In this document: piece after piece, positions 5,006 to 16,700 of the stretch
Numbering within the stretch: position 1 is the stretch's first letter
Layout: each line of letters opens with the position of its first letter
Assembly (NCBI GenBank): GCA_025349905.2
Contig: MU624920.1
Location: forward strand, 1 to 17,268
DNA: 17,268 bases
Reading direction: 5' to 3'
Source: Blastocladiella britannica
Taxonomy: Eukaryota; Blastocladiomycota; Blastocladiomycetes; Blastocladiales; Blastocladiaceae
Notes under the pieces: model-generated
What the model was told of the DNA's origin: nothing
The model's database searches: none
The model's input: the letters and a program-made list of their open reading frames with translations, nothing else
Program-made: the position numbers and the translations under genes

Positions 5006-8000
5006 ATGGACACACCAACACTTTCTCACATCACGCTCCGGGCCGCGGACCGCGAGCTCCTGCAATCCGCGCTGGCATTCTACACGTCGCTTGGGTTTGC
5101 AGTGGTGCGCGAGGACGACCAGGGCCACTGGCTCGTGTACTTTTCGCTTCCGGGCACTGGCGGCGGTCCGACGTCGCCGACTCCGGGCGGCGGCAACAAT
5201 GCCCTTCTCAATGTAACGCCGACCACCTCCGGCGGCATCGGATCCGGATCTCCGGCCGTGGGCCCGCGCCAAGTCGGATCGCCGATCGGCCGCGCACTCA
5301 CGCCCATGCTGCTGGACCCAGTGCTGCCGTCGACCTTACACTTGCGACTGGCCGACGCCGATGCGCCGGTCCGTGCGACGCCTGTGCCCGAGCAGCTCAA
5401 TGCCGCACCCGTGTCGCTGATCTTTACTGCAGCCGACTTGTTGCCGCTCGAACGGCTGTGCCTGAACAAGGAGTACCGGTCGCAGGCCATGACCCGCAAA
5501 GACGGCGCTGGGTACCTGTATGTTGCCGATCCGCTCGGGAATGTCGTGGTTTTCACCACCAAGGTTTGCTATTCGTCCATTTAAAAAAAAAAACCTTGAT
5601 CGCCTTGACTGCAGCTAACGAAATGTGTATATAAAAGGCACACCCGCTCTCCTCCCGCCTGCTCTCGTCGTCGTCGGCGGCGTCGGCTTCTTCTGCAGGA
5701 TCCGGTCCGACCACGATCCCGTACACGGAGACCACCACCTACAAGGTCGCGGCCGACCTGGCCGCCGCGCCGCCCACACTCACTTCTACTCCCAGCAGCC
5801 AAAGCGGCGCCAGCACAAAGCACACCACCGTGGAGCCCAAGCGGATCGGCATTTTGACATCGGGAGGCGACTCGCAAGGCATGAACGCGGCGGTGCGGTC
5901 GGTGGTGCGCATGTGCCACATCAAGGGATGCAAGCCATTTGCGATTTACGACGGGTACCAGGGACTCGTGGACAACCGCATCATTCCGTTCGGGTGGGCC
6001 GACGTGCAAGGGCTGCTGCGGCTCGGCGGAACCGTCATTGGAACCGCGCGGTGCTTGGCGTTCCGCGAACGCGCGGGCCGTTTATTGGGTGCACTTAACC
6101 TGGTGATGCGCGGGATTGACGCGCTGGTAGTGGTTGGGGGCGACGGATCGCTTACAGGCGCCGATAAGCTGCGGTCCGAGTGGCCGTCGCTCTTGGACGA
6201 GCTGTTGCAAAACAACAAGATTACGGCTGACCAGCGCGAAAAGTACGCGCACCTGACCATTGTCGGGCTGGTGGGATCGATTGACAACGATGTACGTTTT
6301 TTTTCTCTACCTTTATATGGACAATGACTGACAAAAAAATTGATAAAGATGTCGTCCACGGACATGACCATTGGCTGCGCGTCGGCGCTGCACCGCATCT
6401 GCGAGGCGATTGACGCGATCGAGGCCACAGCTCTCTCGCACAGCCGCGCGTTTGTGATTGAGGTGATGGGCCGGCACTGTGGGTGGCTGGCGCTGATGGC
6501 GGCGCTGGCGACGGGCGCCGACTGGCTGTTTGTTCCCGAGCGACCCGTGATGACCGACGACTGGAAGGCGTCCATGTGCGAGCACCTGGCGCGCGTGCAC
6601 CACCGCGGGCAAAAGAAGATCATGGTGATTGTGTCCGAGGGCGCGATTGACCGCGAGTTGAACCCCATCAAGGCCGAGACGGTGCGCGACGTGCTGGACC
6701 AGCAGCTGGGCCTGGACGCGCGCGTCACTACCCTGGGCCACGTGCAGCGCGGCGGCAGTCCCGCGTTCTACGACCGGTACCTGGGCACCGTGCAGGGCGT
6801 GCGCGCAGTCGAGGAGATCTTGCGGTCCACGCCCTCCACCCCGAGCCCGATGATTGGCGTCTCGCAGAACAAGATCACCGTGCACCCGCTCGTCAAGGCC
6901 GTCGAGCTCACGCACGCAGTGTCGGCGGCCATTGAGCGCAAGGAGTTTGCTCGCGCCATGGAGTTGCGGGATCCCGAGTTTGCACCTACCGTACGTGTTT
7001 TTTTTTTTTTTTTTCGCTGTATCTCAAGATGGATGCTGATCCTCTAAATTTAGTTTGACACGTTCGTGGCCATGAACAACATGCCGCCGGAATGGTTCGG
7101 CGCCACCGCCAAGTCCGGCCCGCTGGCGTACGCGTCGCCGAGTCCCAGCGCCGCCGCCAGCCCGATCACCGCGACCGCACCGCCTTCCACGGCTGGTGCT
7201 CCCCCCACGGGCCTCAAGATCGGCATCTTGCACTTGGGCGCCCCCGCGGGTGGCGTCAATGCGGCGACCCGTGCAGCGGCGCTGCTGGCGCTTAACCGTG
7301 GGCACACGCCCGTGGCGATTTACAATGGCATTGACGGGCTGATCCGGGGCGACACGGCGGTGATCACGCGCCGCATGGTGCTCAACTGGACGGCCCGCGG
7401 TGGGTCCGAGCTCGGGACCAACCGGGACCAGCCGGGCGACCAGTTGGGTGTCTGCGCGTACCAGCTGCAACGGCTCGGGCTTCATGCGCTGATGTTTGTT
7501 GGCGGATTCGAGGCGTTCACTGCTCTGCACACGCTCACCAAGGCGCGCGACCAGTACCCGGCCTTGTGCATTCCCATGGTGTTGGTGCCGGCCACGATTT
7601 CCAACAATGTTCCGGGCACAGGTTCGTACGATATTTATCCATTTAGTGACTGGTTTTATTGACATTTAAAATGGATTAGACTACTCGCTCGGATCCGACA
7701 CGGCCCTCAACGAGATTGTGAGCGCGTGCGACAAGCTCAAGCAATCGGCGTCGGCCTCTCGGCGGCGCGTGTTTGTGATGGAAGTGCACGGCGGCAACGT
7801 CGGGTACCTAGCGACGCTCGGTGCGCTGGCTGGTGGGGCCACCTCGTGCTATATCCCCGAAGAGGGCCTGAACTTGGCCACGATCCAGCGCGACGTGGAC
7901 CACCTGCGCAAGCGGTACGAGGCCGAGACTGGGTCGGGGGCCAAGCAGGGCCGCGTGGTGCTGCGCAACGAGAACGTCTCCGAGTGCTACACGACCGAGG

Positions 8001-8539
8001 TCATGTGCTCGATCCTACGGGCCGAGTCGCAGGGCGAGTTTGACGCGCGCGCGGCGGTTCTGGGACACTTGCAGCAAGGTGGGGCGCCGAGCCCGCTCGA
8101 CCGCACCCGCGCCACGCGGCTCGCGGCCATGTGCATTGACTGGATCGAGCGGCATACCTGCGACACGTACGCGCCCGCGTTGGCGATGCTTGGCGATCGC
8201 AACGACGGTGGCAGTTACCCGCCGCGGTCGTCGTCGCCCACCAACGGGCCCGTGTACACCAAGACCCGCGAGTCGGCGTGCGTGATTGGGATCCGCGGCG
8301 CCGACCTGGTGTTCACGCCCGTGGTGGACCTGATGCTGCTCAACACCGACCTCAAGAACCGCCGCGCTCGCGAGGCATGGTGGATGACGTGGCGCGGGCT
8401 GGTGCCGCTGCTGGCCGGATACGCGATCCCGCCGCAGGTCGCAGTCGAGCAGTTTGCGCGCAAGCCCGAGGGCGTGCGCAGCAGCGAGTCCACCAGTGTC
8501 ACGGGCCTGGGCTTGTTGCCCGGAGATGCCAAGTTGTAA
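5006..8539 (+). CDS. PFK: ATP-dependent 6-phosphofructokinase, fungal type with N-terminal glyoxalase-like domain
   Basis: Catalyses ATP-dependent phosphorylation of fructose 6-phosphate to fructose 1,6-bisphosphate, the committed step of glycolysis. Five exons: 5006-5563, 5638-6291, 6349-6990, 7054-7621 and 7680-8539. Introns are 74, 57, 63 and 58 nt; the protein is 1093 aa, near yeast subunits (about 960-990). Residues 1-186 form a glyoxalase/VOC-like domain ending [12 protein letters not shown], as in yeast PFK subunits. A Ser/Ala/Thr linker follows. The N-terminal catalytic half starts at about 254: GGDSQGMN (263-269), SIDND with catalytic Asp402, MGRHCGW (444-450) and GHVQRGGSP (534-542). 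The C-terminal half (from about 672) keeps the fold ([30 protein letters not shown]). It lacks the catalytic Asp, as in regulatory halves that bind allosteric effectors. The TAA stop lies inside a GTAAGT donor, and the protein ends -AKL (see findings). An alternative terminal exon to 8666 is possible. Confidence 0.93.
5564..5637 (+). other. PFK intron 1 joining the glyoxalase-like domain to the PFK core
   Basis: A 74-nt phase-0 intron: donor GTTTGC after FTTK, branch site CTAAC at 5615-5619, acceptor AAAAG at 5637. The first exon's frame stops at 5582-5584 and the PFK frame has a stop at 5632-5634, both inside this intron. The PFK frame has no ATG until the one inside its ATP-binding motif at 5881. 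The two parts must therefore be one gene. The downstream TGCAG at 5698 would give the wrong phase. Confidence 0.85.
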
Positions 8540-8729
8540 GTAGTGTTTTCAGTTGACGTTACTATTGAGCAGTCTTCTTTTTTTTTCTTTCGTGTCTTTT
8601 TTGTTTTGATTGGCTTGATCTGGGTGTGTGGGTGGGGGCAGGGATGCAGGGAAACATGTAAATTGAACTCTGCTGCATGAGCGTATAATTCAATGGGGGA
8701 TGTCTCACAAAACCAAAACCAACCAGAAC
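8540..8729. other. Convergent 3' region between PFK and the hemerythrin gene
   Basis: This 190-nt gap between two convergent stop codons is T-rich on the plus strand (about 8573-8615). No classical AATAAA was seen in either direction. It also holds a possible alternative PFK acceptor (GGGGGCAG, ending 8641) with a short alternative terminal exon (8642-8666). The two 3' UTRs probably overlap. Confidence 0.5.
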
Positions 8730-9398
8730 TCACTCCTCGGGAACCGCCCGGCCAGCGAAATCCTTGCCGAGATCCGCCACCTTGTCGATCGGCTTGGTAA
8801 ACATGCCCGCAATCGCCTCAGCAATGGGCTTGATCGGCGCCGACGGGTGCGGGTTGGTCGGGGCCATCTTCTTGGCACCCGAGAACTTGTGGCCCAGCGT
8901 CACCATGTTGGCGTCCCCGATCTTGGCCCGCAGCATCGGCAAGTCCGACTCCTCCTCCTCGCGCGCGTGACTGCGGAGCTCCGTCATCACCTGCGACAGC
9001 AGGGACGCGTGCTGCGGACTGGTGGTGCGCATCGACTGCAGCTGATACAGCTGGTTGCGCACTGTCTGGTGGTCGGACCGCAACTTGTCGGCCACTTCTT
9101 TGCCCTCGTGCTCCTCGATCGCTGCGTAGACAGTCTATTTTTTGAGATTGTTTTTTTTTTCCATCGTCGGTGTTTAGTGTCCCGAAGTATGGATAACGAT
9201 ATATATAGATACCAGCTCTTCGGCCGAACTGTGCTGCACAATCTCGCGGATCAGCTCATTGGCCACCGCCGTCTGCGCATCGTCGTTGCCGGCCATCGCC
9301 AGGTACCGGTCGTGCAGCTCCCACAGTGACTTGTGGTCGAGGCGGATCAGATCGTCGACACCGCGATCGGTGCTCGAGACAGAGGAGAAGGCTTGCAT
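8730..9398 (-). CDS. Hemerythrin-like (HHE cation-binding) domain protein
   Basis: Predicted four-helix-bundle protein that binds a non-haem di-iron centre; fungal members have proposed oxygen, iron or redox roles but no agreed function. Exons are 9398-9213 and 9134-8730, giving 196 aa. The intron is 78 nt, phase 0, GTATCT..AAATAG. Splicing rebuilds the signature QHSSAEELTVYAAIEEHEG, with SAEEL from exon 1 and TVYAAIEEHEG from exon 2. Candidate iron ligands are H22 and H29 (DHKSLWELHDRY), H56, E60/E61, H71, H84 (DH) and H118 with E121-E124 (HAREEEE). The C-terminal 60-70 residues (about from 130) form an extra tail rich in Lys, Pro and Ala with no recognised domain. No signal peptide or transmembrane segment is present, so it is probably cytosolic. 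The start is the ATG just before the first helix. It is convergent with PFK. Confidence 0.85.
9135..9212 (-). other. Intron of the hemerythrin gene
   Basis: A 78-nt phase-0 intron, GTATCT..AAAAAATAG, containing an A10 tract. It sits in the middle of the HHE domain. Removing it fuses SAEEL to TVYAAIEEHE, matching the family core. Confidence 0.85.
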
Positions 9399-12230: not shown

Positions 12231-13575
12231 TTATACATTCGAACCATATGCGGCGCGAGGTCCATTTCCATTCGTCGCCGCTGCTGCCGCCGTCGCCGCC
12301 AGTCGACGCGACTCGGCCGCCTGCTTACAGAGTTCGGGGACGCTAAACACGCCCCAGACCGCGTCCCGGAACTTTTCAAAGTTAAAGTCTAGCAAGCCCG
12401 CCTTGCCGTCATAGTTTTCGGCGCGCAGCAGGCACACGAGTGACAGCTTGTCCATTTGCACCAGCGACAAGACAATGCCGGTCGAAAGCCGGATTACGCT
12501 GCCCTGTTTCCGGTCCGTGATTGGCGCCAGTGTCAGCACGCCCGGTCCAATTGGCCCGGTTGCTGTCGTTGCTGTTGTTGTTGTTGTTGCTGCAGCAGTT
12601 ATTGCTGCTGGCGGTGGCGGCGGCGACGAAGATTGCTCGTAAATGTGCTCGAGGTCCATCATCACATCAATCATGTCCGAGCACAGCTCGTAGCTCTGCA
12701 CATCCACGGGGCTCGAGTCGGTTGCCAGGTAGATCTTGGTGAACGAGTCAAAAAGGAAGGTTTTTTCGATGCTCGAGTTCTGAAATATAATGTTGAGTCC
12801 ATAATGATCCAATGCTTTCAATAGTGGTTACAACGCACCAGGCACAGTGTGTTGAGCAGGTTTTCGAGCGTAGGAAGCTGCGGGATGAGCTTTTGCACCA
12901 CTTTGCTAAACGCCTCATAGATCGAGTGGTCGTAAATGGAAGTAAGGTGGAACGAGAGCTTGATCTTGTCAAGCAGCTCGAGATCGAGGAGCTCGTCCGT
13001 CACGCGCTGGTGAATGTCGCGCTGGACCTCTGTTACATTTTTTTTCATGTCAGTATTTGTCGAAATAGTAAGGAGAAAAACAAGGCAAACCGATCTTGGT
13101 GTCGTCGCGAAGGCCATCGACCTTGTGGATAAAGACCTCGTAGTACATGTTGGGGTTGTAGCGCGAGGCCGTGGCCACCGTCACGTACAGCCGTTGCAGG
13201 GCGTCATAGTAGTCGTCCTATCATGACATGGTCAGACACAACCAACCAAACCAATTCAAAAATAAAAGAGAATACCTGAGCGTCAATGACAAAAATAATG
13301 GCCCCGGCCGCCGACGCCTCGCCCGACGCGCCCTCGCCAAAGATGGCCTCGAGATCGAACGTGGACGGGTCCGTGAACTCGATCTGGCCCGGGAAGTCGG
13401 CAATCATGAACTGGATGAACGAGTGCACGCGCTCGACGCCCACGGTGGTGGTGGACTCGAGAAAGATGGTCTCGTTGGGCGCCATCTTGTGGAACACCAC
13501 CTTCTGGATCGACGTCTTGCCCGACCGGCGCAGGCCCATGAGCAGGACGCGCGGGAGCTCGAGGCGGATTTCCAT
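12231..13575 (-). CDS. GTR2: RagC/RagD-family GTPase (Gtr2 orthologue)
   Basis: Small GTPase that pairs with a RagA/Gtr1 partner on the lysosome/vacuole and signals amino-acid sufficiency to TORC1. Exons are 13575-13276, 13217-13091, 13029-12839 and 12779-12231. Introns are 58, 61 and 59 nt; the protein is 388 aa (human RagC about 399, yeast Gtr2 about 341). P-loop GLRRSGKTS is at 14-22, switch II DFPGQ at 60-64 and guanine-specificity HKVD at 131-134. The HKVD form is typical of RagC/D/Gtr2. Near-diagnostic stretches follow: [27 protein letters not shown] and [15 protein letters not shown]. The C-terminal roadblock-like domain is interrupted by a Pro/Ala/Thr tract, then resumes at [12 protein letters not shown] disordered Ala/Asn/Gly tail ends the protein. 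No lipidation motif is expected in Rag proteins and none is seen. It lies 166 nt downstream of the Rrp5 stop on the same strand. Confidence 0.95.
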
Positions 13576-13732
13576 TCTTTGTATTTTTTAGCTGTTGAAG
13601 TACAAGAGAGGCCTGCAAGAGAGAGGACCAGGACCACAGGAAACCACAACCACACCCACACCCGAGCCCGCCCACTCGACCGTCACCCACGAAAAAAGAG
13701 AAAGACAGAAAAAAAAAAAAGTATACATGTAT

Positions 13733-13738
13733 TTTATT
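13733..13738 (-). terminator. AATAAA poly(A) signal of the Rrp5 gene
   Basis: AATAAA begins 4 nt after the Rrp5 TAG stop (13744-13742). A T12 run on the coding strand (13720-13709) follows about 12 nt later. Hexamer plus U-rich element makes a complete, very compact polyadenylation site. Confidence 0.6.
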
Positions 13739-13741
13739 GGA

Positions 13742-16700
13742 CTACTCGCCACGGTTGATGGACTCGACGTACTCCACAGCGCGCTGCTTGACGTACGCAA
13801 TCCGGTCCTCGTCGCCAAACTTCTTCTCAAACTCGAGCCACTTCTTGAAAAAGAATTTCACCTTCTTGGCCGAGAACTTGAGGGTGATGATACGCTCAAA
13901 CAGCTTGCGTGACGCGTCCATGTTGCGGGCCTTGACTTCCATGTCCAAGTACACGGACCACAGGTCGACGCGCTTCGGGTAGTTGGCGAGCACGCCCTCG
14001 AAGATGGTGCGCCCGCGCTCGGCGTCGCCGTGCTTGAACTCGAGCATCGCAAACTGCGAAATGAGCTCAATGTGCTTGGCTTTCGCCACCGACTTGAGCG
14101 CCCGTGGAAGCAGCGCACGGGCCTCGTCTCCGCGCGTCCGCTCAAACAAGTACCCAGCAAACCGCAGCCACGCCTGGGGCGCGTCCTTGAACTTGAGCAC
14201 CATCTCGTTGTACACCTCCTCAGCCAGATCATGCTTGCCCGACCGCGCGTAAATGTCCACCAGGTGCTGGTAGACCGTGCGCGGGTCATTGTACTGCACC
14301 GCGCGCTTGAACAGCGTCTCGAGCGAGCTGCGGTCGCCAAACTGGTTCTCCAAGTTGAGCCACGCCACCCATACGTTGAGCTTTTCTTGCTCCTCGCGGT
14401 AGTGGATCACTTGGATCGCACGCTCGGCCACCGCCCGCGCCTTGGTCACGTCCGCGAGCTTGAGCTGGAACGCCATGTACTTGATCCACAGGAACGACGA
14501 GTTGGGGGACCCGACCAGCAACCGCTCGTAGTCGGTCGCCAGCTGCGGCTCGGCCAGGAGCGCCGCCTGACGCTGCTCCACTGCGCGCTCGGCGTCCTCT
14601 TTCGCCTTGAGCTTTTGCCGACGCTGCTGCGTCTTGCTGAGCTCGCTGCCGTCCACCTCCATGGCGTCCTTGTTGTAGTTGGAGTTGTTGTCGTCCACTT
14701 CTTGGTCCTCGTCGTCAGCGTTCTCGTCCTCTTCGTCGTCCGAGAGCGAGTTGGACCAGCTAAAGCCCTTGCTGACGCGGAGTCCCGCCGAAGATGATGC
14801 CAGTGCGGCCGAGACGCCAAGAACTGTGGACGACTCGCCCTCGTCGTCGCTGACCTCGCCCGCGATCCCGAGCGGTCCCTCGACGTCTTCCTCCTCGTCG
14901 TCACTGTCGTCACTGTCGTCATTGCCGTCCGAGTCCGAAATGGCCGCGTTCACAACGTCCACTTGATCACCCTCGTCCTCGTCCTCGTCCTCCTCGTCGG
15001 ACGACACCTCAGCGACGGCCGCAGCAACGCGCTTGCGCGCCTTGCACGACAGCTCGATTTTGCCGTCCTCGGCGAGCGCGGTCACCCGGCACGCGATCGG
15101 GTCCCCGACCTTGTACAGGTTGAGCCAGTCGCGTACAAACTCGTTACTGAGTTCGGCGATCTTGACGCGGCCCGTAAGCGTCGGGGCCAGCGCCACAAAC
15201 ACGCCGGCCTTGTCGCGCACGTTGATCACGTACCCATGCACATCCATGTCGACCCGCAGATCCGTGATCGATGTCGGAGGCGTACCGGACTTGTACGGTA
15301 GCGCACCGAAATCGAGCGACTGCGCCAGTTGCAGGGACTTGGGCCCCGCGGCGGCCTTTGCGGCTTTCGCGGCCTCGCGCTGCTTGGCGCGCTGCTCCTT
15401 CTTGCTCTCGCCGCTCGCGGCAGCAGCGGCGCCATCGGCCGACTTCTTGTTGGTCCGCTCCTCGAGCAAGAACGACGCGCTCATCTTCTTGTCGTCCTCG
15501 CCCACGTAAAAGATGCGGCACTTGACGGGTTGCCCGCGCTTAAAGTCGGCGGTGGACTCGAGGTGCTCGTGGGACATGTCCGACTTGGGCACAAAGCATC
15601 GCACGTGGTTGTACAGGCTCACCACGCACCCGGCCGACAGCACGTTGATGATCACGCCGTGGGCGATGGTCCCGACCAAGTCGCGCGAGTACGCGACCAC
15701 CACAGGCAGGTCCGAGTTAACCAGCGTCTTTTTCGCCGTCAGCGAGAACCGGAGGCCGTCGACCGTCAGCACCCGGAACTTGTGCTTGGACTCGACCGGG
15801 AACCGCTTTTCCGGGTGCGAGAGCGAAATGTCGGAAATGTGGAGCGTGGGCACCAGGCCGCGGAACTCGTAGGTCTTCTGGATCTTTTTACTGGGCCGGC
15901 CGTTGGCCGCGGCGGCCGCGTCCTTTTTCGCTTGCTGCTGTTGCTGTTTGGCCTCTTCGGCGGTCGGGGCGATCAGAAGCTTGACCATCATGCCGTTGGC
16001 AGTGTGCTCAAGAATCTCGCCACGGACAACGTCGCCGACGGCAATGGGCGGCAGCGGGCGGGTATCGACGGGCAGCGCAAACGGCATGTGCACGACATGT
16101 ACCGGGAAGCGGGCGGCCAAGTCGGCGGTGACGGTCGCGATCGGTGCGTCTGCAACCACCGGGTGCAGAGTGACGACGCGCGACTGGGCGCGGCGGTCGT
16201 ACGCGTGCACTTTGAACAGCGCAATGGCGCCGTCGCGGGCGAGCCGGCTAGACTCGGACGCCGGGATCGCGTCCTGGGGCACAAACGAGCGCACGCCCGA
16301 CACGGCGGCGTCGGGAAGACCTAGGTCCACCATCACCCCGTGGTCCTCTTGCGAGGCCACTGCTCCCTGCACGAGGGTTCCGGGCTTGATGTCGCCGAGC
16401 GACATGGGCGACATGACTTGCGCGGGTTGCATCGTCAGCTCGACGCGCTTGGTCGTCAGGTCGTTGCGCATCTGCACCGCCGTGACCTTGACCAGCACCA
16501 TCTGGCCAACGGTGAAAAAGTCGTTGAGGTTCGGGAGTTCCTGATATTTTCACGTATGTGAGTCTGTGCGTTCTCCATGTCGGAGAAGAATGGCCATCAA
16601 TACCTTCTCCTCGTCTTCATCGTCATCCGACTCGCCATCGCCACTGCTAGCATCAGGCGCCGCGTAGGCTGCCACCAGCGCCGAGATCGTGGGCGAGATT

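Follow-up and report, generated by a model that had tools for sequence, protein, structure and literature searches.

Does splicing decide whether the phosphofructokinase (PFK) of the fungus Blastocladiella britannica carries a peroxisomal signal (PTS1), or does the enzyme bear such a signal in its ordinary reading frame? The question is raised by a window of 17,268 nt (the whole stretch of DNA that was analysed), in which the PFK frame terminates in -AKL and its stop codon sits inside a donor-like hexamer. This enzyme catalyzes the committed and regulated step of glycolysis. A sequence-only reading of this DNA had proposed a switch, in which retention of positions 8536-8641 leaves a peroxisomal PFK ending in -AKL and their removal leaves a cytosolic PFK ending in -DAGKHVN.

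The PFK gene and its terminus

The window, part of a 15.26-Mb genome assembly of 624 contigs (G000), encodes a PFK of the fungal/animal double-domain type, with two PFK stretches recognized by Pfam and a score of 997.5 bits, above the curated cut-off of 708.4, against TIGR02478 (eukaryotic fungal/animal PFK-1). Its introns measure 74, 57, 63, and 58 nt (Table 1). The public B. britannica protein P0001 (1093 aa, 100% identity) also terminates in -AKL, and its gene model is without a terminal intron. The frame ends in -GDAKL with the TAA inside GTAAGT, exactly where the sequence-only reading had placed them, and the tripeptide does fit the PTS1 consensus [SAC][KRH][LM]. A hemerythrin-domain frame (window 8730-9134, minus strand) is convergent with PFK, with its stop ~190 nt past the PFK stop. 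Further along the same strand (window 13204-16549, minus) lie an exon of a Gtr1/RagA G protein and an RRP5-like frame that carries S1 and HAT repeats. Rfam gave zero matches within the window.

Table 1. Features of the PFK locus in window coordinates.
Feature	Position	Strand	Basis
PFK gene, 1093 aa	5006..8539	+	gene model; length and ends match public P0001; TIGR02478 match
PFK exons (5)	5006-5563, 5638-6291, 6349-6990, 7054-7621, 7680-8539	+	gene model
Codons of PFK residues 1071-1093, predicted disordered tail	8468..8536	+	pLDDT <50
-AKL codons GCC AAG TTG, PTS1-type ending	8528..8536	+	gene model; B. emersonii P0242 and Catenaria P0002 end alike
PFK stop TAA	8537..8539	+	gene model
GTAAGT over PFK stop, donor-like, judged coincidence	8536..8541	+	intron statistics; hexamer and TAA counts
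Candidate 106-nt intron, judged unlikely	8536..8641	+	score -1.86 vs mean 15.2 (sd 5.0), 47 introns

Conservation of the ending

Comparison of PFK ends among relatives, as the sequence-only reading had suggested, showed that B. emersonii, known from a 347-aa fragment model only, and Catenaria anguillulae end in -AKL as well, giving the same ending in 3/3 species. The residue at position -4 is Asp in B. britannica, Ala in B. emersonii, and Val in Catenaria. The PFKs of Allomyces, Sorochytrium, Paraphysoderma, and two metagenome relatives do not end in -AKL. Among the matches listed (the best 120 per search, the second list repeating 11, which leaves 229 distinct PFK homologs), a strict PTS1 was found in 4/229, namely the -AKL trio and Gorgonomyces haynaldii; some sequences in the set are models flagged as partial, with C-termini that are possibly incorrect. 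The protein of this chytrid (P0258) ends in -QSRL and lies outside the -AKL clade. An -NKL end occurs in 8/229 of the listed homologs (P0011, P0022, P0025, P0047, P0049, and others), and those inspected are metagenome proteins.

When the C-terminal half was used to build a maximum-likelihood tree of 20 rows, the trio formed a single clade (99/96), within which B. britannica and Catenaria are sisters (93/90, just below the starred level), so that the two Blastocladiella PFKs are not near-copies of each other. Outside -AKL, the tails of the trio are little or no more similar than shuffled sequences: when the last three residues are removed, 498, 273, and 67 of 500 shuffles align equally well for the three pairs. 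These pairs show 74-75% identity, and all three (3/3) share the last three residues; among non-trio pairs, which are not independent of one another, the last three residues are identical in 10/1017 at 65-75% identity and in 39/824 at 75-85% identity. The composition of 60 predicted proteins leads us to expect a strict PTS1 end in 0.31% and AKL in 0.036% of cases, and such an end was found in 1/60, the window PFK itself, the ends of model genes being imprecise. Because the two nearest relatives found keep -AKL while the tails drift, we judge the ending to be more than chance. An end that is kept while the linker drifts matches what is expected of a targeting signal, and the peroxisomal reading is strengthened because both of the nearest relatives found end in -AKL on otherwise diverged tails.

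All three species may nevertheless owe the ending to one gain in their clade, in which case they do not count as three independent events. A rival view is that -AKL does not work as a signal, having appeared by chance a single time in their common ancestor and been tolerated since on a cytosolic enzyme. Confinement to one clade, the Asp at -4 in B. britannica, and GAPDH, PGK, and GPI without PTS1 in the same genome all agree with it, but the tripeptide was kept in every one of the three species although the surrounding tail drifted, and we consider this view unlikely.

The proposed splice switch at the stop codon

Introns were predicted with a gene model self-trained on B. britannica (60 genes, 225 introns), its input being 200 kb of the 15.26 Mb plus the window and seven loci. 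This model recovers the four PFK introns and two TPI introns. It merges neighbors (PFK with the upstream gene and TPI with the downstream gene), and of six gene ends checked, four were right (PFK, PGK, PEX5, and GPI) and two wrong (TPI and GAPDH). Its introns are biased toward its own site model; the six PFK and TPI introns, the hexamer counts over 200 kb, and a first round without a site model serve as model-independent checks. Three intron sets were used: all 225, 129 with both flanks >0, and 47 with both >3.

Predicted introns mostly start with GT-N-[C/T]: at position +4, 88-91% of them have C or T and 4-5% have A. The six PFK and TPI introns that reproduce the public proteins have C or T there in 6/6. 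GTAAGT begins 0/47 introns with both flanks strongly coding, 0/129 in the looser set, and 1/225 of all, and in the 200 kb its frequency is 0.70 times that expected from dinucleotides, vs 2.08 times for GTACGT. The hexamer over the PFK stop had been described as an ideal donor; it fits the general consensus, but it is untypical of this genome, where +4 is rarely A. Acceptors here tend to AA[C/T]AG and not GGGGGCAG; the acceptor proposed at 8640-8641 scores under all 47 introns. As a separate observation, the predicted introns of the 200 kb show GTACGT- or GTATGT-type donors and A-rich acceptors, and both GTACGT and GTACGC occur twice as often as expected.

The candidate intron itself is correctly described in several respects. 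Its removal keeps the frame, which then reads AKLDAGKHVN up to a TGA at 8664-8666, and the stretch past the stop is T-rich (46% T over 110 nt; mean 27%, sd 8, at 54 of the 60 model ends). It exceeds the other introns of PFK, a caveat already raised by the sequence-only reading, and the median of predicted introns is 63-64 nt; 4/47 of them are at least 106 nt long, so length is no bar. Splice-made isoforms are moreover known for fungal GAPDH and PGK, according to the available part of PMC3798809. Against these points, both of its sites are untypical, its score (Table 1) falls below 47/47 and 129/129 introns and is equaled by 30.6% of 2844 sampled GT sites, GTAAGT is depleted where GTACGT is enriched, and the public model does not contain a terminal intron. 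Switching of PFK between peroxisome and cytosol by retention or removal of 8536-8641 is thus unsupported, and we regard it as very improbable.

With the same donor, other acceptors score 3.07 for an intron of 114 nt and -1.36 for one of 146 nt, while the AG at 8726, giving 191 nt, scores 6.85. The 191-nt alternative, the product of which would extend to 1173 aa, lies in the low tail of introns, scoring above 2/47 and 7/129 of them, and 8.5% of the sampled GT sites reach 6.85. Some other use of the PFK donor may occur, as may rare splicing at the stop. TAA lies within GTAAGT in 22/1710 TAA triplets (1.3%, both strands, 200 kb), from which we infer many chance cases over thousands of genes. A stop inside GTAAGT was found at 3/60 model gene ends, PFK included, these ends being imprecise, and at PFK alone among seven genes with ends read. 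The placement of the PFK stop is little beyond chance and looks like a coincidence.

A cryptic isoform generated by alternative splicing was considered and rejected on two grounds: the main frame and the public model already end in -AKL, which is therefore not hidden, and no usable splice sites were found for the 106-nt candidate, which scores below all 47 introns. Stop-codon readthrough gave no strict PTS1 end in the in-frame extensions of PFK, TPI, GAPDH, PGK, and malate synthase, and the readthrough frames of GPI and PEX5 exceed the 300 nt translated.

A probable open signal and possible sources of cytosolic activity

The B. britannica genome encodes PEX5 with 64% identity to the consensus of the PEX5 repeat region, and the best solved matches of this frame are PTS1 receptors. 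The Pex2/Pex10/Pex12 family is also present. Malate synthase, which in fungi commonly resides in peroxisomes, ends in -GKAKL in B. britannica, and its last three codons and its stop are identical to those of PFK. In an AlphaFold2 prediction of PFK (34-row alignment, one model; mean pLDDT 78.3), residues 1071-1093 fall below 50, and this end of the protein is therefore probably free.

Our preferred reading, to which we assign a probability of roughly 0.65, is that the PFK of Blastocladiella and Catenaria bears an ordinary, open PTS1 on a disordered tail, is bound by PEX5, and is imported at least in part. The enzyme would be translated with its -AKL openly encoded, PEX5 would bind this ending, and PFK would be taken into peroxisomes (microbodies), partly or fully. 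Cytosolic activity could result from incomplete import, to which a signal weakened by the Asp at -4 might contribute in B. britannica; alternatively, it could come from a second, trypanosome-type PFK gene without PTS1. Either source could explain a cytosolic PFK, and a splice switch is unnecessary.

Incomplete import is described as a route to dual location for other proteins in section 8 of PMC3798809, as far as that source was available, and the same section suggests partial import of a fungal fructose-bisphosphate aldolase with a PTS1-like end. Both this aldolase and the PFK described here are glycolytic enzymes with a terminal signal, and dual location by incomplete import, suggested for the aldolase in the same part of the source, would apply to PFK as well. 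They differ in that the aldolase signal is reported there as PTS1-like, whereas the PFK tripeptide is canonical and its import is predicted only.

The second PFK gene is located at G000:C9:23842-24887 on the minus strand (L005, L006). Among solved structures it is closest in sequence to PDB 2hig and 6qu3, which we take to be trypanosome PFKs, and its best NCBIfam match is PRK06830, below the cut-off for this fragment. Assembled by eye, its spliced frame terminates in -DLVL, which is not a PTS1. This trypanosome-type PFK could serve the cytosol. The clade-X PFK is the glycosomal one in kinetoplastids, according to the part of PMC9512073 available, and the second PFK of B. britannica, which is of trypanosome type, differs from glycosomal PFK in that it lacks a PTS1.

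Other glycolytic enzymes and the glycosome

The TPI of B. britannica (L022, 1055-1938) ends in -CRARL, and -ARL also ends the TPIs of B. emersonii, Catenaria, and Sorochytrium, while two Allomyces TPIs end in -ARA and -AQL, without a strict PTS1. The distribution of TPI -ARL appears to match that of PFK -AKL partly. It is weaker support because many TPIs end in a strict PTS1 (28/120 among the best 120 homologs listed). The GAPDH, PGK, and GPI of the B. britannica genome have no PTS1; among the enzymes compared, PTS1-type endings are present on PFK and TPI. Aldolase (two families) and Hexokinase_2 gave zero matches in this genome; the control genomes were likewise unmatched by PF00274 and PF03727 but were matched by PF01116. 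Either the assembly or the search may be responsible for these missing matches, and we do not read them as absence.

These endings bear on a stronger alternative, that PFK is mainly or wholly peroxisomal and forms a glycosome-like segment of glycolysis with TPI. In its favor are the -ARL shared by the four TPIs, the lack of a strict PTS1 on the two TPIs and the PFK of Allomyces, and the existence of a separate PFK without PTS1. However, strict PTS1 ends are frequent among the TPIs listed, three other enzymes of the pathway carry none, and aldolase and hexokinase were without match, and we find it improbable.

A tentative extension, which we would not expect to hold, is that Blastocladiella and Catenaria have evolved a partial glycosome independently of trypanosomes, with the fungal-type PFK and TPI imported and the trypanosome-type PFK cytosolic. 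The microbodies involved would perhaps be the ones found, together with lipid globules, in the side-body complex of the zoospore. Microbodies are mentioned for the side-body complex of Blastocladiomycota in the part of PMC9616733 available. If true, this partial glycosome would be the mirror image of that of trypanosomes, whose imported PFK is the trypanosome-type one.

Comparison with known systems and significance

In fungi, TPI, GAPDH, and PGK are reported to have peroxisomal isoforms that arise via splicing or readthrough (Freitag et al., 2012, cited in PMC4207609, PMC3798809, and PMC9512073, each available in part). As far as these sources go, those enzymes and the PFK described here are alike in being glycolytic enzymes with a PTS1; they differ in that the signals of fungal TPI, GAPDH, and PGK stay concealed until splicing or readthrough uncovers them, whereas the main frame of this PFK ends in PTS1. 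The glycosomal PFK of kinetoplastids and diplonemids also has a C-terminal PTS1 (PMC9512073, available in part), but these PFKs belong, according to that part, to other PFK clades than the fungal/animal double-domain enzyme of the window. No PFK of a fungus bearing a PTS1 came up in the accessible portions of the open-licence literature, and the word phosphofructokinase is absent from the available parts of PMC4207609, PMC9133605, and PMC3798809.

If imported, this PFK would be a case to compare with the glycosome and would place part of sugar metabolism in an unexpected compartment. Since PFK is the committed step, a peroxisomal PFK would alter the control of carbon flow in a deep fungal lineage.
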